Shown here one piece after another: positions 6,292 to 49,852 of a stretch of DNA of 50,047 nt (positions within the stretch are counted from its first letter, which is position 1; each line of letters begins with the position of its first letter). The stretch is from the NCBI GenBank assembly GCA_947478405.1, contig CANJVX010000022.1, positions 1-50,047 on the forward strand, in the 5' to 3' direction. The stretch is from Beijerinckiaceae bacterium (GTDB taxonomy: Bacteria > Pseudomonadota > Alphaproteobacteria > Rhizobiales > Beijerinckiaceae). Made by a program: the position numbers and the translations under genes. The notes under the pieces were generated by a model that did no database searches, was not told the DNA's origin, and was given only the letters and a program-made list of their open reading frames with translations.

Positions 6292-8265
6292 GTGATCGTC
6301 GAGACCGGACATTACGCACTTGTTTTGGCTCTGGCCCTTGCCATTGTGCAGGGCCTCGCACCGCTGGTCGGCGCGATCCGTCGCGATGGGGAACTCATGG
6401 CGATGGCGCAGCCCGCCGCCGTGATGCAATTTCTGCTGGTGGCTTTCTCCTTCGGCGCGTTGACATATTCTTATGTGACGTCGGATTTTTCCGTCACCAA
6501 TGTTTTTGAAAATTCCCACTCGTTGAAGCCGCTGATTTATAAAATCTCCGGCGTCTGGGGCAATCACGAAGGGTCGATGCTTTTGTGGGTGCTGATTTTG
6601 GCAGCTTTTGGCGCAACCGTGGCGCTCTTCTCGCGCGGCATGCCCGATGATCTGCGCGCATTGGTGCTGGCCGTGCAGAGCTGGATTGCAGCGGCCTTCC
6701 TTCTCTTTGTGCTGCTCACCTCCAATCCGTTCGCGCGACTGGATCCAGCGCCGATCGATGGGCGCGATCTCAATCCGCTGTTGCAGGATCCGGGTCTGGC
6801 CATTCATCCACCGCTTCTCTACATCGGTTATGTCGGCTTCTCGATCACCTTCTCTTTTGCTTTGGCCGCGCTGATTTCTGGGCGCATTGATGCAGCGTGG
6901 GCGCGCTATATTCGGCCCTGGACCCTGGGTGCATGGGTGTTTCTGACGCTTGGCATCGCGATGGGCTCTTATTGGGCCTATTACACGTTGGGCTGGGGCG
7001 GCTTCTGGTTCTGGGATCCTGTGGAAAATGCCTCGCTTCTGCCCTGGCTGGCGGGCACCGCGCTTTTGCACAGCGCCGCGGTGATGGAAAAGCGTGATGC
7101 GCTGAAAATCTGGACGATTTTTCTCGCGATTCTCGCTTTCTCTTTGTCGCTGCTGGGCACATTCCTTGTGCGCTCGGGTGTGCTGACCTCCGTTCATTCT
7201 TTTGCCAGCGATCCGCAACGTGGCATCTTCATTCTCGCCATTCTTGTTTTCTTCATTGGCGGCTCTCTTGCCCTGTTTGCATTTCGCGCTTCGGCGCTGA
7301 AACCGGGCGGCATTTTTGCGCCCGTGTCGCGCGAAGGCGCGCTGGTGCTCAACAATCTTCTGCTGACGACAAGTTGCGCAACTGTTTTCATCGGCACGCT
7401 TTATCCGCTGGCGCTGGAAGCTGTGACGGGCGAGAAAATTTCCGTCGGCGCGCCTTTCTTCAACCTCACTTTCGGGCCGCTCTTCATTCCGATTCTTTTG
7501 GCCATGCCTATTGGCCAGATGCTTGCCTGGAAGCGCGGTGATCTGTTGGGCGCGGCGCAGAGGCTTGTGCTTGCCACGGCGCTCGGCGTCGTCGGCACGC
7601 TGGTGCTCTATGCGCTACGTGGTGGCGATGTTGTGCCGGCTGTTCTCGCGGGCTTGGCGATTTATCTGACCATCGGCTCTTTTGTTGAAATTGCCGGACG
7701 TTTGAGCGGCGCGCCCTCAGCTTCAGCTGTGTTGGCGCGCGCACTTGGTTTGCCGCGGTCGGCTTGGGGCGCGGCCTTTGCGCATGCGGGTGTCGGACTG
7801 ACTTTGTTTGGATTGGCAGCAACCGGCTGGGGGGTCGAGCGCATTGTCTCGGTCAAGCCCGGCGAGGCTGTTTCGGCTGGGCCTTATGAAGTGGTCATCA
7901 TGTCCATCGCTCCACGCGAAGGGCCCAATTACAATGAGCTTGTCGCACATACGCAGATCCGCGAAGGCGGCCGGGTAATTGCTGAAATAGATCCCTCGCG
8001 GCGCTCCTTCACAACACGCACCATGGTGCGCACAGAAGCTGGCATTGTCACGTTGGGCCTGGGCCAAGTTTATATGAACATTGCCGATGTGCGCGTGGAT
8101 GGTGCGATTGATCTGCGCCTTTATTGGAAGCCCTATGTGGCACTTATCTGGATCGGGGCCCTCGTGATGGCCCTGGGTGGACTTCTTTCCATGTCGGACC
8201 GGCGGTTGCGCATCGGCATTGCCAAGCGCGCTGCGGCGCATGTCCAGACGGCGGCAGCGGAGTGA
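6292..8265 (+). CDS. ccmF: Cytochrome c haem lyase subunit CcmF (CycK)
   Basis: 657 residues, many membrane segments. I chose the GTG at 6292 (MIVETGHYALVLALALA): it has GAGGA at 6280-6284 at proper spacing and follows the ccmE stop, while longer in-frame starts lie inside ccmE. The tryptophan-rich WWD haem-handling motif is clear (YTLGWGGFWFWDPVENAS, around residue 235-245), with conserved periplasmic histidines such as the one in ENSHSLKPLIYK. CcmF accepts haem from CcmE and ligates it to CxxCH motifs of apocytochromes, together with CcmH and CcmI. Confidence 0.93.
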   Translation: MIVETGHYALVLALALAIVQGLAPLVGAIRRDGELMAMAQPAAVMQFLLVAFSFGALTYSYVTSDFSVTNVFENSHSLKPLIYKISGVWGNHEGSMLLWVLILAAFGATVALFSRGMPDDLRALVLAVQSWIAAAFLLFVLLTSNPFARLDPAPIDGRDLNPLLQDPGLAIHPPLLYIGYVGFSITFSFALAALISGRIDAAWARYIRPWTLGAWVFLTLGIAMGSYWAYYTLGWGGFWFWDPVENASLLPWLAGTALLHSAAVMEKRDALKIWTIFLAILAFSLSLLGTFLVRSGVLTSVHSFASDPQRGIFILAILVFFIGGSLALFAFRASALKPGGIFAPVSREGALVLNNLLLTTSCATVFIGTLYPLALEAVTGEKISVGAPFFNLTFGPLFIPILLAMPIGQMLAWKRGDLLGAAQRLVLATALGVVGTLVLYALRGGDVVPAVLAGLAIYLTIGSFVEIAGRLSGAPSASAVLARALGLPRSAWGAAFAHAGVGLTLFGLAATGWGVERIVSVKPGEAVSAGPYEVVIMSIAPREGPNYNELVAHTQIREGGRVIAEIDPSRRSFTTRTMVRTEAGIVTLGLGQVYMNIADVRVDGAIDLRLYWKPYVALIWIGALVMALGGLLSMSDRRLRIGIAKRAAAHVQTAAAE

Positions 8266-8266
8266 A

Positions 8267-8743
8267 ATGATGCGTTTCATCCTCGCGCTGTGCCTCAATC
8301 TTCTGCCTTCACTTTGCTTTGCTGTGCAGCCGGGCGAGATGTTGGCAGACCCGAAACTAGAGACCCGCGCGCGCGAGATTTCGGCAGAACTGCGTTGCCT
8401 TGTCTGTCAGAACCAATCAATCGATGATTCTGATGCAGGCCTTGCGCGCGACCTTCGGCTGCTCGTGCGCGAGCGCTTGCGCGCTGGTGATGATGATCAT
8501 CAGGTGCGTGACTTTCTTGTCCAGCGCTATGGCGATTTTATTTTGCTCAAGCCGCCGTTCAAGACTGGGACGTTTCTGCTCTGGCTCTTGCCTTTTGGTG
8601 TTTTGCTCGCGGGTGCTGGCGCATTGGTGGCTTTTGCGCGCAGCCGGCATATTCAGACGGCGCCGGCCACGGGCCTTTCGGAAGCCGAACAGGCGCGGCT
8701 CAAGGCTCTTCTGGAGACCGAGGGCACCAAACCATCTCTCTAA
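8267..8743 (+). CDS. ccmH: Cytochrome c maturation protein CcmH (CycL)
   Basis: 158 residues from ATG 8267 (a second ATG follows at 8270). It has a signal peptide (MMRFILALCLNLLPSLCFA), then the redox motif LRCLVCQNQ with Cys44 and Cys47, a helical segment, and a C-terminal membrane anchor (about 101-123, FLLWLLPFGVLLAGAGALVA). CcmH reduces the CxxCH cysteines of apocytochrome c before haem attachment. It starts one base after the ccmF stop and is the last gene of the ccm set here. Confidence 0.93.
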   Translation: MMRFILALCLNLLPSLCFAVQPGEMLADPKLETRAREISAELRCLVCQNQSIDDSDAGLARDLRLLVRERLRAGDDDHQVRDFLVQRYGDFILLKPPFKTGTFLLWLLPFGVLLAGAGALVAFARSRHIQTAPATGLSEAEQARLKALLETEGTKPSL

Positions 8744-9209
8744 CATTACGAAATTTTATCTAGCCGCCAGCGCGGCGCAGGCATCGAGCTACAAATTTCC
8801 GACCTCGCCGGACGCAAAGTGTTCGTGACATCTTGAAACTGGAGCCCGCCTCATGTCGCTTGCATCCAGTCTGACCTTGCATCTCAACGCACCGCTTGGC
8901 GCCGTTGCGTTGATTTCTGACGAAGTCTTTGCCAATCACGCCGGTGGCCATTGTCGCGAAGTAATGACAAGACAATGAGAGAATTGAAGGACGGCTTTGA
9001 CATCATTGCGCATGACTTGAAGACGCCGCTCACGCGCCTGCGCAGCATTGTCGATCGCTTTGTATGTCTGGAACGTTACTGCTCGCGGCCGGAAAACGGC
9101 CATTGCCTGTCGAAGGCGCGGGCCATTTTGAAATTGCATCGCCGGAAATTGCGCATTGAAGATGATGCGTCGATTTTGTGCGTGAGGCATTCGCTACCAT
9201 TGGTTGACC
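8744..9209. other. Gene debris between ccmH and glnE
   Basis: About 466 nt without an intact gene. From 8853 a short frame of about 41 codons runs to 8979 and matches nothing I know. From about 8975 a histidine-kinase phosphoacceptor region is readable (listed separately). Short pieces around 8761-8845 read like coding sequence (GAGIELQISDLAGRK) but stop quickly. I see no terminator or promoter that stands out. Confidence 0.5.
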
Positions 9210-9217
9210 ATGCGTGA
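8951..9217 (+). pseudogene. Histidine-kinase HisKA fragment
   Basis: A frame of 88 codons contains ELKDGFDIIAHDLKTPLTRL, the dimerisation and phosphoacceptor box of a HisKA kinase (His in IAHDLKTP). There are no membrane segments before it and no ATPase domain after it, and the residues after SIVDRF no longer resemble a kinase. It overlaps the start of glnE. It is best read as the remains of a sensor-kinase gene; in several rhizobia, as I recall, a protease and a two-component pair lie between the cyc genes and glnE. A small real protein is possible but unlikely. Confidence 0.55.
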
Positions 9218-12125
9218 GCCGCTCTGGAAATGCGTGACGAAAGCGCCGCGCTTGTCAGATGCACGAGCGGCGCGCGCAAAGATGGCCGATCTTATGGCGG
9301 AGCCAGCTTTGGCCGGGATATTTCTAAACCCAAAATTTCGTATTTTGTTGGAGGGGCTTGCCGATCATTCCCCCTATCTCTGGCGTTTGGTTTCCGGTGA
9401 TCCGCAGAGATTGCTCCGCCTTGTCATTCGGTCGCCGGATGTGGCGTTGCTCGAGATTTTGGATCGTGCACGAACACGCACGCGCGACGCATCCGGTGAA
9501 GCCGATGTGATGTCAGCTTTACGCCATGCCAAGCAGGAAACCGCACTTCTTATCGCGCTGGCTGATATTGGTGGGCTGTGGGATGTGATTGCGGTGACAG
9601 CTGCCCTGTCCGACTTTGCTGATTGCATGGTCTCATGCGCACTTTCTTTCTTGCTGCGTGAGGCTGCGGAAGCGGGAAAGCTTACGCCCGCTAACCAACA
9701 GGATCCAGAACAGGGGTGCGGTGTTGTCGTTCTCGCGCTGGGAAAACACGGTGCGCGCGAATTGAATTACTCGAGCGATATTGATCTGGTCGTCTTCTTC
9801 GATCCGGAATCGCCTGCTATAAATCCGAATATTGAATCAGGCCCGCTCTTTGTGCGCATCACCAAAAATCTAGCGCGCCTTCTGCAAGAGCGCACGGGCG
9901 ATGGCTATGTTTTGCGCGTTGATTTGCGCTTGCGGCCAGATCCTGGCTCGACTTCCGTGGCAATCTCTTTGCCCGCGGCATTTTCCTATTATGAAAACCG
10001 TGGCCAGAATTGGGAACGTGCCGCCCTCATCAAAGCGCGGTCGGTTGCTGGCGACAAGCCGCTCGGCGATCGATTGCTGGTCGATCTGGCGCCCTTCATC
10101 TGGCGAAAATATTTTGACTTTGCCGCTATTGCCGATATTCACGCGATGAAGCGGCAGATTCATGCGGTGCGCGGCCATGCCGAAGTGATGGTCGAAGGGC
10201 ATGATGTGAAGCTCGGGCGCGGAGGCATCCGCGAGGTCGAGTTTTTTGTGCAAACGCAGCAGCTGATTTTCGGCGGCCGACGTGTACAATTGCGCGGCGC
10301 GCGCACGCTCGACATGTTGAAAGAATTATCGAGCGATGGATGGGTGACGCCAGAGGCTATGCGGGATCTGACCGAAGCCTATGCCTTCCTGCGTATGGTC
10401 GAACATCGCCTGCAGATGATGGACGATGAGCAAACACAACGTCTACCCTCAGACCACAAACAGCTTGAGCAGTTTGCTCGATTCTGTGGATTTGCTAATC
10501 TTTCGAAATTTTCCACAGCGCTCATCAAGGAAATGCGCAAGGTCGAGACCCATTATGCGCGCTTGTTTGAACACGCTCAGGGGCTCGATACGCAAAAAGG
10601 GTCTTTGGTTTTTACCGGTGTGACGGACGATCCAGATACGCTCGAGACTCTGCGAGGAATGGGTTTTGTCGATCCGGCTGTGACGGTAGAGACGATCCGG
10701 GGTTGGCATTTTGGTCGCCGCGCTGCCGTACAATCGGCCCGTGCGCGCGAAGTGCTGACTGAATTGGTCCCTGCATTGCTTGAATCATTTTCTGGTAGCG
10801 GAGACCCCGATTCAGCATTGGCTGCTTTTGACGCAGCTTTGGCACGCATGCCCGCTGCGGTAGAACTATTTTCGATTTTGAAAAGCCATAAAGCCGTGCG
10901 CGATCTTTTTGGTGATATTTTGGGTGGCGCGCCCCGCCTCGCACAAGTTGTTGCGCAGCGCCCGCACGTTCTGGACGCTGCCATTGATCCTGCATTTTTG
11001 GTCTCAGCATCGCATGAAACGAATTATGATGGGCGTGTCGAACGCATTCTACGCCCACCCCATCTGATCGAAGAATTTTTGGATGCTGCGCGCGACATGT
11101 TGTTTGAGGAGAGCTTTATCATTGGTGTGCGTACGCTTTCGGGTATGATTGGCCCAGAGGCAGCCGGGCCTGCTTACACGGATTTGGCTGCCAGCCTCAT
11201 CCGTGCCTCGCTGGCACAGATGGAAGCAGCCTTTGCACTTGAATATGGCCAAGTGCGTGGGGGCCGATGCATTGTTGTTGGAATGGGCAAGCTTGGCTCA
11301 CGCGAAATGACGGCGACATCTGATCTCGATCTTGTTCTTATTTATGATTTTGACGCTGATCGCCCCGAGTCTGATGGGCCTAAAAGTCTGCACGCTGTGC
11401 AATATTATACCCGCCTCACGCAGCGCCTTGTTTCTGCGCTTACGGTGGCGACGCGACGTGGGCGGCTTTATGAGGTGGACATGCGTCTGCGCCCGTCTGG
11501 TGGCAAAGGTCCGTTGGCGACACAATGGCAAAGTTTTTCTGATTATCAACAAAGCGAAGCTGAAACCTGGGAACATATGGCGCTGACACGTGCGCGGCCT
11601 GTGGCCGGCGACATGAGTTTGCGTGAGGAATTTGTGAGGGGTGCGGCGCACGTGATCGGGCGCTCGCGCGATGGACGCGCGCTGCGCAAGGCGGTCGCCG
11701 AAATGCGGGCGCTGATCGCGCAGGAAAAGGGTGATGGTGCAATCTGGGACTTGAAGCTGGTGAAAGGCGGCATGATGGATATTGAATTCCTCGCCCAGTA
11801 TCTGTCGTTGAATTTTGCGCATCTTCATCCCCAGATCGCGCAAGTCGAAACCGCTTCTATTCTGAAGGCGGCCTTGGCCGCACAGCTTTTGGACGCCGAT
11901 GATGGTGAGCGGCTGATCAGCGCCGATCGACTTTATACAATTTTGATGCAGATGTTTCGCCTGTCGACGGATGGCGCTTTCAACCCCGAGCTGATGGCAT
12001 CAGGCGTTTTGCGGCGCATTGCTGCGGCAGCAGATCTGCCGGATTTTCGTTTGTTGGAAATGAATCTGCGTGAGACGCGTGCGCAGGTGCGGTCGATCTT
12101 TGAAAAAATACTCAAGCCTAATTGA
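9210..12125 (+). CDS. glnE: Bifunctional glutamine synthetase adenylyltransferase/removase GlnE
   Basis: 971 residues from ATG 9210 (a TTG two codons upstream is also possible). It contains two nucleotidyltransferase halves: the first has GARELNYSSDIDLVVFFD (about residue 181-198), the second GSREMTATSDLDLVLIYDFD (about 694-713), each with the Asp-x-Asp metal ligands. Family-typical RVDLRLRPDPGS and VDMRLRPSGGKGPL follow each of them. GlnE adds and removes AMP on glutamine synthetase in response to PII state and so tunes ammonia assimilation. The gene ends head-on against the kinase gene on the other strand without a gap. Confidence 0.95.
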   Translation: MREPLWKCVTKAPRLSDARAARAKMADLMAEPALAGIFLNPKFRILLEGLADHSPYLWRLVSGDPQRLLRLVIRSPDVALLEILDRARTRTRDASGEADVMSALRHAKQETALLIALADIGGLWDVIAVTAALSDFADCMVSCALSFLLREAAEAGKLTPANQQDPEQGCGVVVLALGKHGARELNYSSDIDLVVFFDPESPAINPNIESGPLFVRITKNLARLLQERTGDGYVLRVDLRLRPDPGSTSVAISLPAAFSYYENRGQNWERAALIKARSVAGDKPLGDRLLVDLAPFIWRKYFDFAAIADIHAMKRQIHAVRGHAEVMVEGHDVKLGRGGIREVEFFVQTQQLIFGGRRVQLRGARTLDMLKELSSDGWVTPEAMRDLTEAYAFLRMVEHRLQMMDDEQTQRLPSDHKQLEQFARFCGFANLSKFSTALIKEMRKVETHYARLFEHAQGLDTQKGSLVFTGVTDDPDTLETLRGMGFVDPAVTVETIRGWHFGRRAAVQSARAREVLTELVPALLESFSGSGDPDSALAAFDAALARMPAAVELFSILKSHKAVRDLFGDILGGAPRLAQVVAQRPHVLDAAIDPAFLVSASHETNYDGRVERILRPPHLIEEFLDAARDMLFEESFIIGVRTLSGMIGPEAAGPAYTDLAASLIRASLAQMEAAFALEYGQVRGGRCIVVGMGKLGSREMTATSDLDLVLIYDFDADRPESDGPKSLHAVQYYTRLTQRLVSALTVATRRGRLYEVDMRLRPSGGKGPLATQWQSFSDYQQSEAETWEHMALTRARPVAGDMSLREEFVRGAAHVIGRSRDGRALRKAVAEMRALIAQEKGDGAIWDLKLVKGGMMDIEFLAQYLSLNFAHLHPQIAQVETASILKAALAAQLLDADDGERLISADRLYTILMQMFRLSTDGAFNPELMASGVLRRIAAAADLPDFRLLEMNLRETRAQVRSIFEKILKPN

Positions 12126-14417
12126 TCAGCCGGTCGCCAGTAGATCGGCTTGCGCGGGCTTGGAAAGATTGAGCGGCAGCCGGATGCGCACAATGGTACC
12201 AGAGCCGAGGCTTGAGCGAATGGTCAGCGTGCCGCCGTGCAGCTCAACCAGCGATCGCGCGATGGCGAGGCCAAGGCCCGAGCCCTTATTGCCATTATCA
12301 AGTGGCGAGTCGACTTGTTCGAAGGGGCGCCCGAGTCGGGGTAATACGTCAGGGGCAATGCCAACACCGCTGTCTTCCACATAGAGCACCAGTGCGTCAT
12401 CCTCATCAAGGCGTGTGCGCAGAGAAATGCGGCCGCCGTCGGGTGTGAATTTGACGGCATTGCGCAAGAGCGAGACCAGAACTTTTTCAATCGCATTGCG
12501 GTCAGCAAAGAGCTTGGTTTTGGGTAAGCTTTCTGCCTCAAGCTTAATATTCTTTTCTTCTGCTGCAAAACGCAGCGCTTCAATGGCACGCGAAATGGCG
12601 CTGTCGATCTCGAAGCTTTCGGGATGCAGGGTGACTTTGCCTGATTCCAGACGCGACATATCAAGCACGTCGGAAATGACGCCCAGAAGATGCTGGCCGC
12701 TCTCGCGGATGTGGCTTGAATAATCGATATATTTCGCGCAACCCAGCGCACCGAAGGTTTCATGTTCCATCATTTCGGCAAAGCCGATGATGGCATTGAG
12801 CGGTGTGCGTAATTCGTGGCTCATATTGGCGAGGAATTCGCCCTTGGCGCGGTTTGCGGTCTCGGCCTCGGCCTTTTGTTCCAGATATTTTTCTGCCAAA
12901 TCGGCGAGCTGCTGGGCCTGCGTTTCCAGTGTCTGGCGGGATTTGCGCAGATCGGCGATGGTCGCCATCAGACGCCGTTCTGAATCGAGCAAACGTTCTT
13001 CGTGAATTTTGAGCTTGCTGATGTCGGTGCCGACCGAAACGTAGCCGCCATCCTTGGTGCGGCGTTCGTTGATCTGCAACCAGCGGCCGTCGGTGAGGCG
13101 GGCTTCATAAGTGCGTGCGCCCGGTACTTTGCGTGCGCCCAATGGAATCTGCGCCTGAATATTGGGTGAAGTGCCAATCGACATGACGTCAGCATAGGGG
13201 AGGCCGAGGATTTCGGCTTCAGCAGGCAGATTGTGCAGGCTCTGGAATTTCGAATTGCACATGACCATGCGGTTTTCCGCATCCCACAGTACGAAAGCTT
13301 CCGAGATGGTTTCAATCGCGTCACGCAGGCGCATGTCGGCTGTGGCCGTGCGTTCGATCAGGTTCTTCTGATCGGAAATATCCACCGCGATGCCAACGAG
13401 ATGCGGATTTTTTTGTGCACCTTGGCGCATGATTTCAGCGCGCGCACGGATCCAGAGCCATTCGCCTTTGGCATTGCGCATGCGGAAAGCATGATCGAGT
13501 GAGTTGGTCTGTGAGGCTGCGAGCATTTCGGCCATAGCCTGGAGATCGCCATCTTGCGGGTGGATGAGTGTGTTCACATCGCCGAAAGAGAGGAATTCTT
13601 GTTTCTGATCGAGCCCAAGAATTTCATACATGGAGCGCGACCAATAAATGCGGCCGCGCGCAATGTCCCAATCCCACAAGCCGCAGCGCCCGCGTGCCAG
13701 AGCCGCATCAAAGCGTTGGCGCAATCCCGTGCGCGCGTCTTCCGCCTCGGCGCGATTTGAAAATTCCTTGAGATAGGCGCGCGCACCAAATCCCGTCAAA
13801 AGCAGAAACCCGATCAGCAGGATGCCGCCGCGCGCCATATCCTTGCGCCAATCTTCATACACATGAGTGACTGGCTGAACGAGTGCGAGTTGGCCGTAGG
13901 GTGCGTTGAGGACACGCACTGCAGCGAGAACTTCGCGTCCGTCTCCCAGAGTGATCTGCATGGCGCCGGCGGTGTCAGCGAAAAAAGTAATTGGCTGCGT
14001 GGTGCCCAGCACGTCTTGCAGATTTTCGCCGGTTGCTACCGATTGCGGAGATTGGCCTGTAATGATGCCGCTTTCGTTGGTGACGTAAATTTCGCGTCCA
14101 TGCATAAACACGCGGCCGGGGAGCAACGGGTTTGTGCCCTCGCGATTGCGCGCGAGCAGATTGAATTCCGCTTTCAGCCCCGAGGCAATCATATCGATTT
14201 CATCAATGGCGGCTGCATGGACGGCCTTGCGGCTTTCAATCGCCTCATGCAGGCCCAGCAGAGCCAGACACGCAGACCCCAGAAGGATAACCAGGGGAAT
14301 GACAAAGCGGCGATGAAAGCGAGGCGCGGAAATGCAGACGCCGGAGGCATTGCCTGTGGCAATCTCCGTTTCGATTTCTGCGCGAGCAGAGAAAGTGGCT
14401 GCGTTTGCACGCGCCAT
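12126..14417 (-). CDS. PAS-domain membrane sensor histidine kinase
   Basis: 763 residues from ATG 14417 (MARANAATF), preceded by GAGGGGG at good spacing; an upstream in-frame start adds 16 residues without a ribosome site. Two membrane segments (about 38-56 and 200-216) frame an extracytoplasmic sensor with dual-Cache-like length. Two PAS domains follow (AALARGRCGLWDWDIARGRI; EAFVLWDAENRMVMCNSKF), then a coiled coil, the HisKA box ANMSHELRTPLNAIIGFAEM (His near residue 533) and the ATPase domain (NAVKFTPDGG, EDSGVGIAPD, GSGLGLAI). The FG..KY.DY...I..SGQHLL stretch is the style of the alphaproteobacterial PleC/DivJ/PdhS group. There is no regulator gene next to it, so the partner is unknown; the C-terminus has no receiver domain. 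Confidence 0.85.
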   Translation of the reverse strand: MARANAATFSARAEIETEIATGNASGVCISAPRFHRRFVIPLVILLGSACLALLGLHEAIESRKAVHAAAIDEIDMIASGLKAEFNLLARNREGTNPLLPGRVFMHGREIYVTNESGIITGQSPQSVATGENLQDVLGTTQPITFFADTAGAMQITLGDGREVLAAVRVLNAPYGQLALVQPVTHVYEDWRKDMARGGILLIGFLLLTGFGARAYLKEFSNRAEAEDARTGLRQRFDAALARGRCGLWDWDIARGRIYWSRSMYEILGLDQKQEFLSFGDVNTLIHPQDGDLQAMAEMLAASQTNSLDHAFRMRNAKGEWLWIRARAEIMRQGAQKNPHLVGIAVDISDQKNLIERTATADMRLRDAIETISEAFVLWDAENRMVMCNSKFQSLHNLPAEAEILGLPYADVMSIGTSPNIQAQIPLGARKVPGARTYEARLTDGRWLQINERRTKDGGYVSVGTDISKLKIHEERLLDSERRLMATIADLRKSRQTLETQAQQLADLAEKYLEQKAEAETANRAKGEFLANMSHELRTPLNAIIGFAEMMEHETFGALGCAKYIDYSSHIRESGQHLLGVISDVLDMSRLESGKVTLHPESFEIDSAISRAIEALRFAAEEKNIKLEAESLPKTKLFADRNAIEKVLVSLLRNAVKFTPDGGRISLRTRLDEDDALVLYVEDSGVGIAPDVLPRLGRPFEQVDSPLDNGNKGSGLGLAIARSLVELHGGTLTIRSSLGSGTIVRIRLPLNLSKPAQADLLATG

Positions 14418-14601
14418 GCGTTGGCCCCCTCGATGGTATGTTTCGGGCGAGCCAATGTGCCGCATCGCCTGCCCGAATCACTTCCCATCTGAATCCGCGC
14501 GAATCACTTTGTCCAGACCTTAATGAAAGGTTGATGGATTTTTTTTCATCCGGGAAAGGTTCGGGGCTTGTTTCTGAATCCCGCTCGGACTCAGGGGTCT
14601 T

Positions 14602-17268
14602 TCAGACTCCCAGTGATCGCTGGGCGATGTCGCGCACGTCCGCCGAGAGATCTTTCACGGCGGCGACGCGCTGGAGGGCTGCCTCAGCAAAGGCGCGGCG
14701 GCTCGGTTCCAGTGAGCGCCAGCTGCGGAAGGCTGCGAGCAGGCGGGCGGCGACCTGCGGGTTTTTGGGGTCCACCGCGATGACGGTTTCGACCAGCAAA
14801 TCGTAGCCCGAACCATCGGCCGCATTGAAGCGGGTGAGATTTCCGGTGGCGAAAGCGCCGATTAGCGAGCGCAAGCGATTGGGGTTGGTCAGCGAGAAGG
14901 CGTGGTGGTTCATGAGCCGCTTCACCCGAACCAATGTGGCCTCTTCGGGAATCATGGCCTGAATCGCGAACCATTTATCTGTGACAAGCGGATCGCTGGC
15001 ATGCGCACGGAAGAACGAATCCAGGGCTGCTTCGCGCGCATCTCCGGGAATGAGCGACAGCACATTCAAGGCGCCGATCTGGTCAGTCATATTATTGGCG
15101 GCGCGGAATTGCTCTGCCGCCAATTGCACGCCTTTATTGGGTGCCCCTGCTGCGATGAGATCGAGTGTCGCATTGCGCAAGGCGCGACGGCCGGCATGGA
15201 CTGCGTCCGGGGAATAGGCCTGCGTATGACCGAGTTCGTGATAGACGCGCTCCAAATCGTCTTTGAGCGAACGGCCAATCTGGGCACGTAGGATTTTGCG
15301 CGCATAATGCACGGCTTCGGGATCAACATCCTCTCCGATCTCGCGCGCCAGATCGCTTTCGCTGGGCAAGATCATAGCTTGCGCCGTGAAGGCTGGATCC
15401 ATCTCGAAATTGGCGAGAACAGCTGCGAGCGCCTTAGCGATTTTAACCGCATCATCAGGTGTTCCGCCGTGACGCACGGCATCAACAGCGCGGATCATCC
15501 AGCGCGTGGCGCATGTTTGCGCTGCTTGCCAGCGATTGAACATGTCGCTGTCATGGGCAAGTAGGGTCAGCAGATCATCGTCCGAGAGTGGGCTGTCCAG
15601 ATTCACCGGGGCTGAAAAGCCACGCATCAGACTTGGTACAGGGCGGCGTGCCACTTTCTCGAAAACAAGTCGTCGCGTGATTTGCGTGAATTCGAAAACG
15701 CCCCGGCGTGTTTCATCGGCGCTGGCGCCACCATCTTCATCTTTTGGCGGCGTGACGAGCGCGATCTCGGCACCATTTTCATCGATCAGACCAAGGGCTA
15801 CCGGAATGACGACGGGGTATTTCTCGCTCTGCCCATTGGTGGGAGCGGTTGATTGTTTAAAATCCAATGTGAGGCGTTGTGCTGTCTCATCATAATGAGC
15901 GGTAACCTTCAACCGCGGCGTTCCGGCTTGCGTATACCAGCGTTTGAATTGCGTGAGATCGCGGTGTGATGTTTCCTCAAAGCAGGCAAGAAAATCTTCG
16001 ACCACAGCGGCTGTTCCATCGCAGCGCTGGAAATAAAGATCCATGCCTTTACGAAACGCATCGGGCCCGATGAGCAGCTTCAGCATGCGGATGATTTCCG
16101 CGCCTTTCTCATAGACCGTCGGCGTATAGAAATTATTGATCTCAAGATAGGTCTCGGGCCGCACATTATGCGCAAGCGGGCCTGCATCTTCAGGAAATTG
16201 TGCGGCACGCAGCGTGCGCACATCTACGATGCGCTTGACCGCACGCGAGCGCTGGTCCGCCGAAAATTCCTGATCGCGGAAGACGGTGAGGCCTTCTTTT
16301 AAACAAAGCTGAAACCAGTCACGACAGGTAATGCGATTGCCGGTCCAATTGTGGAAATATTCATGCGCAATGACGCCTTCGATATGTGCGTAATCCGTAT
16401 CTGTGGCTGTCTGGGGTAGGGCCAGAACAAATTTATCGTTAAAAATATTGAGGCCCTTGTTCTCCATCGCTCCCATGTTGAAATCTGATACGGCAACAAT
16501 GTTGAAAAAATCGAGATCATATTCGCAGCCGAAGGCCTCTTCATCCCACCGCATTGAACGCTTGAGCGCATCCATGGCGTAATCAGCGCGCATGTCTTTG
16601 CCATGTTCGACATAAATGCAAAGCGCGACTTTGCGGCCCGAGAGGGTTGTGAATGTATCGCTTATGCAAGCCAGATCACCGCCGACAAGCGCAAAGAGAT
16701 AGGCGGATTTTGGCCAGGGGTCATGCCAGATGGCATAATGTCTGTTGCCGCCTTCTATTGTGCCCATGTCAGTACAATTGCCATTGCTAAGAAGCACAGG
16801 CGTTTCACCCCGGTCGGCTTCAATGCGCGTTGTATAGACGGAGAGCACATCCGGACGGTCGAGAAAATAGGTGATGCGGCGAAATCCCTGAGCTTCGCAT
16901 TGTGTGCAATAAACAGAACCCGAACGATAGAGTCCCATCAATTTGGTGTTGGATGCCGGATCCAGCTCAGTGATCGTGATGAGCGTGAAGGCATCGGGAA
17001 CCTCAGCGATTTGCAATCTTTGAGGGGTTGCAATGCCATTGAGTGTGAGCGCGATGCCATTGAGTTCGACAGAGAGAACTTTCAACCCTTCCCCATCAAG
17101 CACAAGGGGGGCGTCAGGGCGCCCCTTAGGATTGCGCCGGATAGCGAGTTTGGATTCGACACGGGTCTGATTACCTGCGAGCTGCACATCGAGATGGACT
17201 GTGTCGATGAGAAAGTCCGGAGCCTGATAATCGGCAAGGCGGACAGGCTCGGCAATATCGGTGCGCAT
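14602..17268 (-). CDS. pepN: Aminopeptidase N (M1 family)
   Basis: 888 residues, normal for PepN. It has the substrate-binding GAMENKG (about residue 262-268) and the zinc site HEYFHNWTGNR (about 300-310) with the third ligand Glu downstream in LKEGLTVFRDQEFS. The N-terminus reads PVRLADYQAPDFLIDTVHLD, typical of the family. It removes N-terminal residues from peptides in the cytoplasm. It is transcribed toward the PAS kinase with 184 nt between the two genes; no clear terminator was seen. Confidence 0.95.
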   Translation of the reverse strand: MRTDIAEPVRLADYQAPDFLIDTVHLDVQLAGNQTRVESKLAIRRNPKGRPDAPLVLDGEGLKVLSVELNGIALTLNGIATPQRLQIAEVPDAFTLITITELDPASNTKLMGLYRSGSVYCTQCEAQGFRRITYFLDRPDVLSVYTTRIEADRGETPVLLSNGNCTDMGTIEGGNRHYAIWHDPWPKSAYLFALVGGDLACISDTFTTLSGRKVALCIYVEHGKDMRADYAMDALKRSMRWDEEAFGCEYDLDFFNIVAVSDFNMGAMENKGLNIFNDKFVLALPQTATDTDYAHIEGVIAHEYFHNWTGNRITCRDWFQLCLKEGLTVFRDQEFSADQRSRAVKRIVDVRTLRAAQFPEDAGPLAHNVRPETYLEINNFYTPTVYEKGAEIIRMLKLLIGPDAFRKGMDLYFQRCDGTAAVVEDFLACFEETSHRDLTQFKRWYTQAGTPRLKVTAHYDETAQRLTLDFKQSTAPTNGQSEKYPVVIPVALGLIDENGAEIALVTPPKDEDGGASADETRRGVFEFTQITRRLVFEKVARRPVPSLMRGFSAPVNLDSPLSDDDLLTLLAHDSDMFNRWQAAQTCATRWMIRAVDAVRHGGTPDDAVKIAKALAAVLANFEMDPAFTAQAMILPSESDLAREIGEDVDPEAVHYARKILRAQIGRSLKDDLERVYHELGHTQAYSPDAVHAGRRALRNATLDLIAAGAPNKGVQLAAEQFRAANNMTDQIGALNVLSLIPGDAREAALDSFFRAHASDPLVTDKWFAIQAMIPEEATLVRVKRLMNHHAFSLTNPNRLRSLIGAFATGNLTRFNAADGSGYDLLVETVIAVDPKNPQVAARLLAAFRSWRSLEPSRRAFAEAALQRVAAVKDLSADVRDIAQRSLGV

Positions 17269-46774: not shown

Positions 46775-46803
46775 TTGACCCGATGGGCGGCCTTGGCCTA
46801 CAT
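46775..46803 (+). promoter_or_regulatory. Probable sigma-70 promoter of tRNA-Val
   Basis: TTGACC at 46775-46780 and CTACAT at 46798-46803 are 17 nt apart. The predicted start near 46810 is about 25 nt before the tRNA 5' end. The -35 is good, the -10 only fair. Confidence 0.55.
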
Positions 46804-46834: not shown

Positions 46835-46909
46835 GGGCGCGTAGCTCAGCGGGAGAGCACTCCCTTCACACGGGAGGGGTCACAGGTTCAATCCCTGTCG
46901 CGCCCACCA
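46835..46909 (+). tRNA. tRNA-Val (anticodon CAC)
   Basis: A complete cloverleaf with encoded CCA can be folded: acceptor GGGCGCG pairing with CGCGCCC, D stem GCTC/GAGC, anticodon stem CTCCC/GGGAG with loop TTCACAC (anticodon CAC at 46867-46869), T stem ACAGG/CCTGT. It decodes GUG valine codons. The 3' half from 46860 is the left attachment site of the integrated element, and the gene is intact after integration. Confidence 0.97.
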
Positions 46910-46913
46910 TTAT
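46860..46913 (+). repeat. attL: 54-bp direct repeat in the tRNA-Val 3' half
   Basis: It runs from the anticodon stem (CTCCCTTCACACGGGAG) through the CCA end and four bases beyond (TTAT). It is identical over 54 bp to 49723-49776. This is the classic attachment-core arrangement of tyrosine integrases that use tRNA genes. Confidence 0.93.
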
Positions 46914-46989
46914 CTTCAGATGGTTACACAAGCCTAGCCAAGATCGCCCTGCCAACTGGTCACACTCTGGTCACAGAGAGGGGCTGACA

Positions 46990-48039
46990 GTGGCTACGAT
47001 CCGTAAGCATAGGGGCAAGTGGCAGGTTCAAATCCGGAGGGTGGGCTATCCTGCGGTTAGCCGCAGTTTCCTGTCTAAGGCGGATGCCCAGCGCTGGGGG
47101 CGTGAACAAGAGCGGCTTGTTGATTTGGGAGAAGCACCCAGTCCAAACCGTGTAAGCGCTTCTGCTCCCTTATCAGAGTTTATTGCCCGTTATCTGGCTG
47201 AGGTTTCCAGTCGGAAGCGTTCCAAATCAGATGAATTCCATTTCCGCCAGATCATGCGGCATCGCTTGGCAGCGTTGGTGGTGTCCAAGCTGACAGCTGC
47301 TGACATTGCGTCATTCAGAGATCATCGCCTTAAAAGTGTTGCGGGACCTACCGTCAGGAAAGAGCTGAACCTGCTGGGTCACCTTCTTAAAGTCGCCCGC
47401 TGTGAATGGGGAGCCAGCGTAAAGCCGGATCTGGTTGCATCGGTTCGGAAGCCCGAAAACGCGCAGGGTCGTGATCGGAGGCCATCATCCGATGAGTTTC
47501 TCCGTGTCTATCAAGAACTCAAAAAGAGCAGAAACCCTTTGGTGGCTGACATTGCCAAGTTTGCGATGGTTACGGGGATGCGTCGTGGTGAGGTCTTGTC
47601 TCTGCTTTGGGAGAATGTGGATTTGCCGAACCAGACGGCGCGGTTGCCTTTAACGAAGAATGGGGAATGTAGGGTCGTGCCTTTGGGTCCCCGCGCCATG
47701 ACAGCACTGGCCCGCCAGTTGGAAACGCACCCCTGCAATTATGAAGCTTCAAACGGGAAGCTGAGTGGACCTGTTTTCAATATTTCTGCGAACGCAGTTC
47801 GTTTGGCATGGGGTAGAGCTACCCGTAGGGCTGGTGTGAGTGACTTGCGGTTCCATGATTTACGTCATGAAGCAATTAGTGCCTTTTTTGAAATGGGTCT
47901 GTCCGTGCCAGAAGTTGCACTCATCAGTGGCCACAAGGATGCCCGAATGTTGTTTCGCTATACCCATCTAAAGCCATCAGCCGTCGCTGAAAAAATCTCT
48001 CGTCAATCTGCATCGCTGCTTAACGTTCATCTGCTTTAA
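46990..48039 (+). CDS. int: Tyrosine recombinase/integrase
   Basis: 349 residues from GTG 46990 (VATIRKHRGKWQVQIRR). Starts further upstream would read through the tRNA and attL and are rejected. The N-terminal part is an Arm-binding-type domain (MATIRKHRGKWQVQIRRVG), then a SAM-like core-binding domain around 60-150. Catalytic residues are all visible: Arg198 (TGMRRGEVLSLLW), His289 and Arg292 (HDLRHEA), His315 (GHKD) and Tyr324 (RYTHL). It should recombine the 54-bp site in tRNA-Val. It lies 76 nt inside attL, as usual for tRNA-inserted elements. No excisionase is recognised. Its stop overlaps that of the next gene on the other strand. Confidence 0.93.
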   Translation: MATIRKHRGKWQVQIRRVGYPAVSRSFLSKADAQRWGREQERLVDLGEAPSPNRVSASAPLSEFIARYLAEVSSRKRSKSDEFHFRQIMRHRLAALVVSKLTAADIASFRDHRLKSVAGPTVRKELNLLGHLLKVARCEWGASVKPDLVASVRKPENAQGRDRRPSSDEFLRVYQELKKSRNPLVADIAKFAMVTGMRRGEVLSLLWENVDLPNQTARLPLTKNGECRVVPLGPRAMTALARQLETHPCNYEASNGKLSGPVFNISANAVRLAWGRATRRAGVSDLRFHDLRHEAISAFFEMGLSVPEVALISGHKDARMLFRYTHLKPSAVAEKISRQSASLLNVHLL

Positions 48040-48539
48040 CTTTCGATGTTCCGAACAAAGCTTACATTGCTCACAGGAAGAAAAGCATCTGGGTAGCTCT
48101 TATTTTTCCAAATCCGTTCTTCCCCTTTTCCCCAAACAAGCAACTTGTTATCTTTGCCCATTGGCGGATGGTCGAGAGTTATTTCGCTTGGCAGAAAACC
48201 TTTTCGTAGGTCAGAAACAAAATCGCTAAAAAAATCTTCATTTAACGCTAAAGCGGCTGAGAAAAACCCTGAAGTATCCTCATTTGGCTCCCAAAATCTG
48301 ATCGAATTTATGTGTTCATTGATTTTGATTGATTTTCCAGAAAACAAGCACAATTCAAAAAAAATGGATTCATCGAAGTTTTTCACATTATGAAAGAAGC
48401 GGCTGCCGCTTTCTAATTTAATTACCCCGCTGGTCCCATTAGTGCATCGAATTGACACGGTTGATGAACCACGATCCGATTTGCTTGTGAGTTTATTGCT
48501 CATCTCCAGAGTGGCGTTGATTGGGATAAGAGAAATCAC
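48036..48539 (-). CDS. Element-borne AT-rich protein, unknown function
   Basis: 167 residues from a GTG at 48539 with GGGGGG before it; an ATG at 48503 is an alternative. No signal peptide, membrane segment or known motif is seen. It is rich in Phe, Ser, Asn and Lys (FFELCLFSGKSIKINEHINS; NEDFFSDFVSDLRKGFLPSE) and clearly lower in GC than the chromosome around it, which points to recent transfer. It is convergent with the integrase, stop codons overlapping. As the only cargo-type gene of the element it could serve the element or protect the host, but nothing in the sequence says which. Confidence 0.65.
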   Translation of the reverse strand: MISLIPINATLEMSNKLTSKSDRGSSTVSIRCTNGTSGVIKLESGSRFFHNVKNFDESIFFELCLFSGKSIKINEHINSIRFWEPNEDTSGFFSAALALNEDFFSDFVSDLRKGFLPSEITLDHPPMGKDNKLLVWGKGEERIWKNKSYPDAFLPVSNVSFVRNIES

Positions 48540-48652
48540 GTGTCCCCCCTAACTAGCTAGATCTTATTTATCGCCATTTATCCTTCCAAACTTATCAACA
48601 TGGCAAGGTGCCAGTTGTTGTCGTGTGTCTTTTGCGCTATTTTCAACTATCG

Positions 48653-48671
48653 TCGTTAGTGTGACTAACGA
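48653..48671. promoter_or_regulatory. Palindrome, possible operator
   Basis: TCGTTAGT-GTG-ACTAACGA is a perfect 8-bp inverted repeat with a 3-nt centre, inside the element and between the divergent unknown gene and the rightward genes. The size suits a dimeric repressor site; no repressor gene is recognised in the element. Confidence 0.45.
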
Positions 48672-48784
48672 TGTCCAAAATGTGCGTTTGCTTTTGCTGG
48701 CGCATGACTCCGGAACAACGCCCGGCTATGCCGACTGAGCGTGGAGGAAAATGCGGGTGGGTTTAGCGACTGTCCCTGCATTGT

Positions 48785-49120
48785 ATGGTTGGTGATGTTC
48801 TCCGAGCCAGCCAGATTGATGAGTTGCTAGGGGTTACCCGTCCTCACAAACAAAGCGGGAGAATGCACTGCCGGAACTTTGCCCGTAAGGGACTTCCGAC
48901 GGCCCGAATGTCCGGACACGGGCTGAGGGGAAACCAAGACAAACATACCCCCCTTTTTTGCGGCTACGGCATATGTGGCGGGGAGGGCGGCTGGCCACCG
49001 ACAAAAGGCATCTTGGCTATACGGTGCTGCAAAGTGTCCCCCTCCAAGCCGCGACCCAACCCAAAAGAAAGGGGAGGGGAGGGAAAGCGGAAGCGGATGT
49101 CGGCCATTGGTATGGCGTAA
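48785..49120 (+). CDS. Doubtful small frame inside the element
   Basis: 111 codons from ATG 48785, no clear ribosome site. The first part (ASQIDELLGVTRP, then NFARKGLPTARMSG) has a mildly helix-turn-helix-like look that could suit a small regulator or excisionase. The second half is low-complexity and looks non-coding. An opposite frame over the same stretch is equally long. I list it only because an excisionase or regulator would be expected here. Confidence 0.25.
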   Translation: MVGDVLRASQIDELLGVTRPHKQSGRMHCRNFARKGLPTARMSGHGLRGNQDKHTPLFCGYGICGGEGGWPPTKGILAIRCCKVSPSKPRPNPKERGGEGKRKRMSAIGMA

Positions 49121-49151
49121 TGCCACACAATTTTGGACTAGGACCCGTGAA

Positions 49152-49601
49152 ATGACGAGAAAAGGGCGCCCTACACGCTATCGCGCAGAGTTTTGCGAAC
49201 GGATCGTTGATCTTATGAGGGAGGGGCGTTCCCTCGACGGCTGCGCTGCATTGTTAGGAGTGCATCCAGACAGTCTTTATGAATGGCAGCACCGCTATCC
49301 AGAATTTTCCGATGCCGTGCGGAGGGGTAGGGCGGCGGCTACAGCGTTTTGGGAAGGGAGGCTTCTAGATGTGGCAAATGGTGGTGCTGGTAATGCTCAG
49401 CTCGTCCAATGGGCGTTAAGGAACCGGTCCCGTGCTGCATCTGGATGGGATCATGCACATAGAAAGGTTGAAATCTCAGGTCCTGACGGAGACCCAATAG
49501 CCCTAAACACTTGCTCTACCGTGATTGACGCCAGATCGCTTACAAAAGAGCAAAGGGATGGATTGAGACAGGCGCTTCTTGCTGTTCGGCCCTCTGACTG
49601 A
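49152..49601 (+). CDS. Phage small terminase subunit-like protein
   Basis: 149 residues from ATG 49152 (AGGA at the right distance); the longer frame upstream is not supported. The N-terminal part is a helix-turn-helix of the small-terminase type: RPTRYRAEFCERIVDLMREG, then CAALLGVHPDSLYEWQHRYP, followed by EFSDAVRRGRAAATAFWEGR and the NAQLVQWALRNRSRA segment seen in these proteins. In phages it recognises the packaging site and brings in the large subunit. Here no large subunit follows. Satellites such as phage-inducible islands carry such a gene to redirect packaging of a helper phage. An ordinary DNA-binding regulator is the alternative. Confidence 0.7.
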   Translation: MTRKGRPTRYRAEFCERIVDLMREGRSLDGCAALLGVHPDSLYEWQHRYPEFSDAVRRGRAAATAFWEGRLLDVANGGAGNAQLVQWALRNRSRAASGWDHAHRKVEISGPDGDPIALNTCSTVIDARSLTKEQRDGLRQALLAVRPSD

Positions 49602-49722
49602 CGGTCACAGTGTGGTCACACCTCGCCGCTGGCGTTATGTTTGCCTTGCATTCTCTTGGCGCGGTATTAGTCTGGCATTGAAGGAGTTTTCCAGTCGGCT
49701 GGTTCGTCCGGAAAGGCTAGGT

Positions 49723-49776
49723 CTCCCTTCACACGGGAGGGGTCACAGGTTCAATCCCTGTCGCGCCCACCATTAT
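49723..49776 (+). repeat. attR: second copy of the 54-bp tRNA-Val repeat
   Basis: It is identical to 46860-46913, but lacks the 5' half of the tRNA, so it is not a second tRNA gene. It marks the right end of the element; sequence after 49776 should be the original chromosome. Confidence 0.93.
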
Positions 49777-49852
49777 TTTTCTTGTTCGCAACATGTTACT
49801 CGTCTGCCCGTGGACGCTTTGCGCCTCTCCAAAAAACTTAGTTTGTTGCTCA

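Follow-up and report, generated by a model that had tools for sequence, protein, structure and literature searches.

The window analysed here, a 50,047-nt stretch from a Beijerinckiaceae bacterium (GCA_947478405.1, contig CANJVX010000022.1) to which all coordinates refer, carries at a tRNA-Val(CAC) gene a 2863-bp unit with the gene order tRNA, integrase gene (int), orphan open reading frame (ORF), small-terminase-like gene (terS) and right attachment site (attR). We consider it fairly probable that this unit is a miniature phage satellite of the TerS type integrated in tRNA-Val. Its features were the following, GC3 being the GC content at third codon positions.

46835 to 46909, plus strand: intact tRNA-Val(CAC) gene, the integration site (ARAGORN, Rfam)
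46860 to 46913, plus strand: left attachment site (attL) core, 54 bp, the 3' part of the tRNA gene and 4 nt (repeat comparison)
46958 to 46975, plus strand: left arm-like pair, GGTCACACTCTGGTCACA, 44 nt past the left core (motif search)
46990 to 48039, plus strand: tyrosine integrase, 349 aa, GTG start (PF00589, 2.9e-25; phrog_1, 7.5e-56; catalytic residues)
48036 to 48539, minus strand: orphan ORF, 167 aa, GC3 0.40, no family above cut-off
48540 to 49151, no strand: gene-poor stretch, 612 bp, no recognised gene; a 111-aa ORF (48785 to 49120) has no family match
49152 to 49601, plus strand: terS-like gene, 149 aa, ATG start (phrog_309, 3.5e-17; profile against Sf6 gp1, 3hef, 7.2e-8)
49603 to 49620, plus strand: right arm-like pair, GGTCACAGTGTGGTCACA, 102 nt ahead of the right core (motif search)
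49723 to 49776, plus strand: attR core, 54 bp (repeat comparison)

The tRNA gene was the single one found in the window by ARAGORN, and Rfam concurred (66.6 bits). A repeat search of the window returned a 57-nt repeat with 98% identity (46860-46916 and 49723-49779), whose copies were spaced 2863 nt apart from start to start and whose initial 54 nt were identical at 54 of 54 positions. The 54-bp repeat ran from the anticodon stem through the CCA and 4 nt past the tRNA, an extent that rules out a chance origin. Tyrosine integrases that act in tRNA genes usually leave such a repetition of the tRNA 3' part. All of the catalytic residues were present in the integrase, R (GMRRGE), K (TKNGE), HxxR (HDLRH), H (GHKD) and Y (RYTHL); a longer ORF starting at 46783 was rejected as the integrase start because it merely reads through the tRNA. 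The sequence-only reading of this DNA had described perfect repeats of the tRNA-Val 3' part, 2863 nt apart, with an intact tRNA and a complete tyrosine integrase inside the left copy, and both descriptions held. With an integrase that has its catalytic residues and a direct repeat of the 3' part of the tRNA at either end, the unit qualifies as a tyrosine-integrase islet in a tRNA gene. Within the unit, the tRNA alone was above threshold in an RNA family scan, and a promoter and terminator scan performed no better than on shuffled sequence.

The sequence GGTCACAnnnTGGTCACA, with at most one mismatch, had two occurrences in the 50-kb window, one within either end of the unit, compared with 0.00 in shuffles. 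These pairs resemble integrase arm sites and are candidate sites of that kind. The motif GTCACA-N4..7-GTCACA, sought in eight other loci, lay between the tRNA and the integrase in five of the six with a related integrase (L051, L067, L068, L069 and L126, the last with the integrase start alone in the sequence and identified by eye), and was not found in L070, which has a related integrase, L107 or L108. The exact left pair recurred beside the related integrases of L051 and L068. Ten more loci carrying a 3' fragment of tRNA-Val, L107 and nine newly added, included one with the motif, L160. L107 (G000:C39:12000-27267, ~9200-11100, minus strand) is another tRNA-Val 3' fragment in the same host genome; about 1.7 kb from it was a truncated integrase start of the window type, which we read as a decayed relative. 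Partial tRNA-Val copies that matched the 3' part alone were seen in many relatives (for example G013:C214, G017:C299, G021:C58, G025:C56 and G033:C16). Judged by sequence comparison, tRNA-Val is a busy integration site among the relatives.

The GC3 of int (0.52), terS (0.46) and the orphan ORF (0.40) was lower than that of two host genes to the left (0.74 and 0.73), and the unit therefore appears to be foreign. The repeats, the catalytic residues, the arm-like pairs and the foreign GC3 all support the earlier proposal of a very small island integrated at tRNA-Val, whose integration system looks complete. As to gene content, that proposal had correctly named the integrase and had left unnamed the ORFs at 48036-48539 (minus strand) and 49152-49601 (plus strand), including terS.

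By profile and model comparison, the ORF at 49152-49601 is a relative of the phage small terminase subunit (TerS), and its closest solved structure is Sf6 gp1. An AlphaFold model of the 149-aa protein had a predicted local distance difference test score (pLDDT) of 77 and a predicted template modelling score (pTM) of 0.55, and its top five Foldseek matches were Sf6 TerS chains (probability 1.00, TM-scores ~0.5). A helix-turn-helix (HTH) is part of TerS proteins. The protein also gave a weak match to IS66 TnpA (E 0.024), and HTH_28 and HTH_Tnp_1 passed the Pfam cut-offs, as would suit an ordinary integrase islet in which this protein is a DNA-binding regulator or a transposase accessory and transfer occurs by chance only. 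That explanation is improbable in view of the match to phrog_309, 'terminase small subunit' (E 3.5e-17), which was shared by 21 of 21 members of the alignment of its relatives, and of the comparison of the family profile with solved structures, where Sf6 gp1 (3hef) was best, with an E-value of 7.2e-8 over profile positions 10-130.

Relatives of terS were present in 46 of 50,697 known phage records, all with less than 60% identity. Among the 30 of 46 matches listed, the phage-record genes were at most 39% identical to the window terS, whereas the chromosomal genes were 43-71% identical. In the viral locus L106, a relative with 38% identity was directly followed by an ORF that was read by eye as a large terminase (TerL). 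Both int and terS are phage-like, and could in principle have been retained by chance in a prophage remnant. We regard this as very improbable, given the higher identity of the chromosomal genes, the result that one TerL query matched L106 alone among the loci then compared, and the failure to find TerL in the host genome, which is 95% complete and gave no match to PF20441 or phrog_2, while the positive controls matched. Portal and capsid genes were sought in the unit and none were found there. A suspected copy of the unit on plasmids was discarded, the match being a single one of 84 bp.

A terS match was found in 15 of 61 genomes: the host, 13 of 36 others of the genus (two of them, G004 and G026, at E ~3e-4 only) and 1 of 24 of the order. 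In a class-wide draw the gene was found in 4 of 387 genomes, host included (E 1e-10). A pattern scan of GTDB contigs gave 31 terS loci labelled Beijerinckiaceae, Rhizobiales, Rhodospirillaceae, Acetobacteraceae and others, most of which, judged by their titles, look like metagenome-assembled genomes (MAGs) from lakes; at least one (URHD0017) is not a MAG. The gene faced the 3' end of a tRNA on the opposite strand, within 1.0 kb, in 19 of 32 copies, that is, the 31 GTDB loci and a second copy in L092; the count excludes the viral locus L106, an incomplete further copy in L096 and loci known from the genome search only, such as L052, whose terS had integrase ORFs on both sides, 6.4 kb upstream and 2.7 kb downstream. 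The expected rate was ~0.8% (41 tRNA genes in the 3.03 Mb of the host) and the binomial p value was 3e-30 at a rate of 1%, some of the loci being evident pairs (L085/L086, L087/L102) and not independent. Moreover, a direct-repeat pair (p <=0.05 against shuffles) lay 30-70 bp from the tRNA in 12 of 19 terS loci, compared with 2 of 37 control tRNA flanks, one of these two being the window's own site; under a looser rule (score >=7, period 10-12, 30-70 bp) the counts were 14 of 19 and 6 of 37. The tRNA-facing orientation and the repeat pairs therefore indicate that the terS family often occupies integrase attachment regions.

Several minor features of the family were also observed. The terS genes of L077 and L082 were closely alike in the 3' part and not in the middle, which shows that the DNA-binding half can be exchanged. 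Upstream of terS in L077, L079, L087, L089, L090, L096 and L102 there was a TATNAT-like box followed by a palindrome, TTTCGnnnnCGAAA, TTAGATnTCTAA or TTAACATGTTAA, arranged as if terS were under a repressor; the palindrome reached p <=0.05 in 5 of 18 tested and was not significant upstream of the window terS (p 0.36). Directly after terS, L088 (~1020-1250) and L103 (~10250-10400) had a remnant resembling a second, different protein (FKPGQSGNPAGxPKG), presumably of the terminase type.

Larger pieces with related genes were found within the genus. L098 (G005) had, within 5 kb, a tRNA-Ser, int, a 183-aa ORF, genes for HTH_17 and AAA_25 proteins and a terS that the contig end truncates, while L051, on contig C39 of the host genome, had a tRNA-Thr, an int 55% identical to that of the window, a 157-aa ORF, HTH_17 and DUF3987 up to the contig end. 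The small ORFs of the two loci were 46% and their HTH proteins 45% identical, and the helicase-type proteins were without detectable likeness. From this comparison, the unit has its type of int in common with L051 and its terS in common with L098, and it is probably a reduced descendant of such elements, perhaps a deletion form that has retained the genes for integration and packaging; the larger elements carry int, HTH_17, a helicase or DUF3987 and, in L098, terS. An integrase ORF was near terS, on its 3' side, in 5 of the 31 loci (L093, L094, L098, L099 and L104), with little or no upstream DNA in four. L104 and L099 had terS followed by int and HTH genes, and in L093, terS was convergent with int, beyond which arm-like repeats and a tRNA 3' fragment were recognised by eye. 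None of the 15 loci with at least 1 kb of upstream sequence had an integrase within that sequence, and several of their terS genes sat between ordinary-looking chromosomal genes. Contig breaks inside terS, seen in many loci, were dropped as proof of integrase-free copies, since an integrase may lie in the upstream DNA beyond the break. Exact tRNA repeats of at least 16 bases were absent from the solitary terS loci, save between two tRNAs of L059. For the larger pieces that carry related integrases, L051, L067, L068 and L069, no convincing attR was found; contig ends truncate the first two.

The sequence-only reading had also proposed a search for empty tRNA-Val sites in relatives. When 29 other tRNA-Val loci were compared, the left neighbour gene and tRNA-Val occurred together in five (G019, G012, G031, G002 and G025), and int, terS and the orphan gene were absent after the tRNA in all five. 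The sole match there, 30 residues of the 111-aa ORF in L140 (E 0.002), was taken as chance. At its end, the window contig was identical over 48 bases to the terminus of contig C27 from this genome. When this overlap was read across, right-flank genes and the tRNA shared one piece in 5 of 5 relatives; the nearest of these genes did so in G031, G002 and G025, and in G019 and G012 only those farther away. From the left neighbour and the right-flank genes around tRNA-Val, the site in these relatives therefore lacks the element at the level of genes. The exact empty junction was not found, the 276 bp to the right of attR matching 0 of 60 other genomes.

Several observations have led us to favour a TerS-type satellite, 1) the core repeats are perfect and the integrase residues complete, 2) arm-like pairs lie inside both ends, 3) the 149-aa protein matches TerS, 4) the GC3 is foreign and relatives have element-free sites, 5) 19 of the 32 copies of terS relatives face a tRNA 3' end, 6) the gene sets of L098 and L051 are those of larger elements and 7) no TerL was found in the host by either model. 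Other results weigh against this assignment. The Foldseek E-values for the Sf6 TerS chains were only 0.012-0.038, the Pfam Sf6_terminase score of 22.2 bits was below the cut-off of 27, and the HTH families noted above did exceed theirs. Pfam and PHROG scans of the unit recognised no HTH/AlpA-type excisionase, replication or capsid gene. A scan of IMG/VR by a few short peptide patterns gave no relative of the window integrase and one contig with a terS relative. The same 2.9-kb unit, which the sequence-only reading had proposed to look for in other strains, was not seen whole in another genome, and the orphan ORF was unique to the host among the 61 genomes. As to the relatives, no second attachment site above shuffles was found up to 3 kb upstream at 11 of 12 solitary terS loci; the twelfth, L080, gave a self-match only, its contig starting at terS. 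The mobility of the relatives is unproven from their sequences.

The last result also bears on the possibility that the unit can no longer move and is what deletions have left of a larger satellite, its replication and regulation genes having been lost so recently that the attachment repeats are still perfect. Larger relatives with HTH_17 and a helicase or DUF3987 between int and the far end, the 612-bp gap without a recognised gene and the solitary terS genes without a second attachment site found, a sign of common decay, all speak for it. Set against this are the full-length int and terS, the two intact arm-like pairs and the core identical at 54 of 54 positions, and we judge a remnant to be possible, although unlikely.

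If the unit is a satellite, Int would recombine attL with attR to give a 2.9-kb circle, whose attP would be the tRNA core between the arm pairs. Once a helper phage infects the cell, TerS from the element would bind a packaging (pac) site on the element and recruit the helper's large terminase, so that helper capsids would be filled with multimers of the circle; after transfer, Int would insert the circle into tRNA-Val of the next cell. The excision factor, replication and capsid would have to be supplied by the helper or host, or by unrecognised content of the 612-bp gap, which could hold regulatory, origin or pac sequences. Because no TerL was found in the host, the helper would be an outside phage or one with a TerL missed by both models; because the element is 2.9 kb, many copies would be packaged together; and because no replication gene was recognised, copying of the circle would fall to the helper or the host. 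We infer the mobility, helper and packaging from sequence, and on that basis the unit may be one of the smallest elements able to travel between cells inside the particles of other viruses.

Among phage-inducible chromosomal islands (PICIs) and Staphylococcus aureus pathogenicity islands (SaPIs), there are some whose own TerS targets packaging to the pac site of the island (PMC6092414, PMC10690885). The unit resembles them in its TerS and in having an integrase at the attached end with a specific attachment site, a PICI trait. PICIs differ in their size, 9.5 kb on average (PMC10803314), and in their replication and regulator genes. No PICI-type replication gene or regulator (AlpA/Stl type) was recognised in the unit, which is therefore not filed as a PICI. 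PICMI115, ~6.1 kb with int, alpA and primase, was called in 2024 the smallest satellite with characterised activity, and eight 6.1-kb copies fill a head (PMC10803314). The unit, at 2.9 kb less than half that size, is likewise very small and without capsid genes, and would need the multimeric packaging described for PICMI; unlike PICMI, it has of the core int, alpA and primase only int, plus terS, and the word terminase is absent from the PICMI paper's text (PMC10803314). The islands of Pseudomonas transduced by jumbo phages (I55 and others) also have an integrase, direct repeats at an RNA gene, in their case that for transfer-messenger RNA (tmRNA), and no transfer genes, and are moved by phage; unlike the unit, they carry defence cargo, and their abstract mentions no small terminase (PMC12595487). 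The nearest likenesses were those to L051, in integrase type (55%) and the exact left arm-like pair, and to L098, in terS, both of which differ from the unit in their HTH_17 and AAA_25 or DUF3987 proteins and are cut by contig ends. Neither an int and terS element of ~2.9 kb nor a lone terS at attachment sites was described in open full-text titles and abstract starts among the matches listed, subscription journals being mostly outside. TerS-encoding PICIs and reduced satellites are already known, and an int and terS unit lacking the PICI or PICMI core is, as read from its sequence, a variant of these.

The fewest genes that a phage satellite needs is a question posed in the PICMI paper (PMC10803314), and a 2.9-kb int and terS element with larger and apparently smaller relatives in the same genus makes it testable. 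One tentative view, which we think rather doubtful, is that satellites can shrink to terS and attachment sites, the window unit being one step in an alphaproteobacterial series. Such a series, no less doubtful, would lead from elements of ~5 kb (int, HTH, helicase, terS) to a lone terS beside a tRNA that keeps integrase arm sites only. By analogy with miniature inverted-repeat transposable elements (MITEs), which are moved by insertion sequences, the lone terS units might be moved by integrase and packaging machinery in trans, a suggestion of the same low probability. Should lone terS genes at tRNA attachment regions prove mobile, a solitary terS would flag a class of elements too small for present satellite finders.

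The product of the orphan ORF gave weak matches to Csx19 (PADLOC, E 0.026) and SCPU (Pfam, E 0.089), which were taken as chance, and its AlphaFold model was uninformative (pLDDT 30). Among the integrase relatives, that of L069 (G007:C104:40000-56000, 7241-15172) was 45% identical to the window integrase and adjoined a tRNA-Arg. Downstream of it was a protein with Cas9-type HNH_4 and RuvC_III domains, the N-terminal part of which was in another frame, and the locus also encoded HTH_17 and Prim-Pol proteins and had repeats that, by eye, look like those of CRISPR. L069 is possibly a satellite-like element with a CRISPR-Cas9 system.

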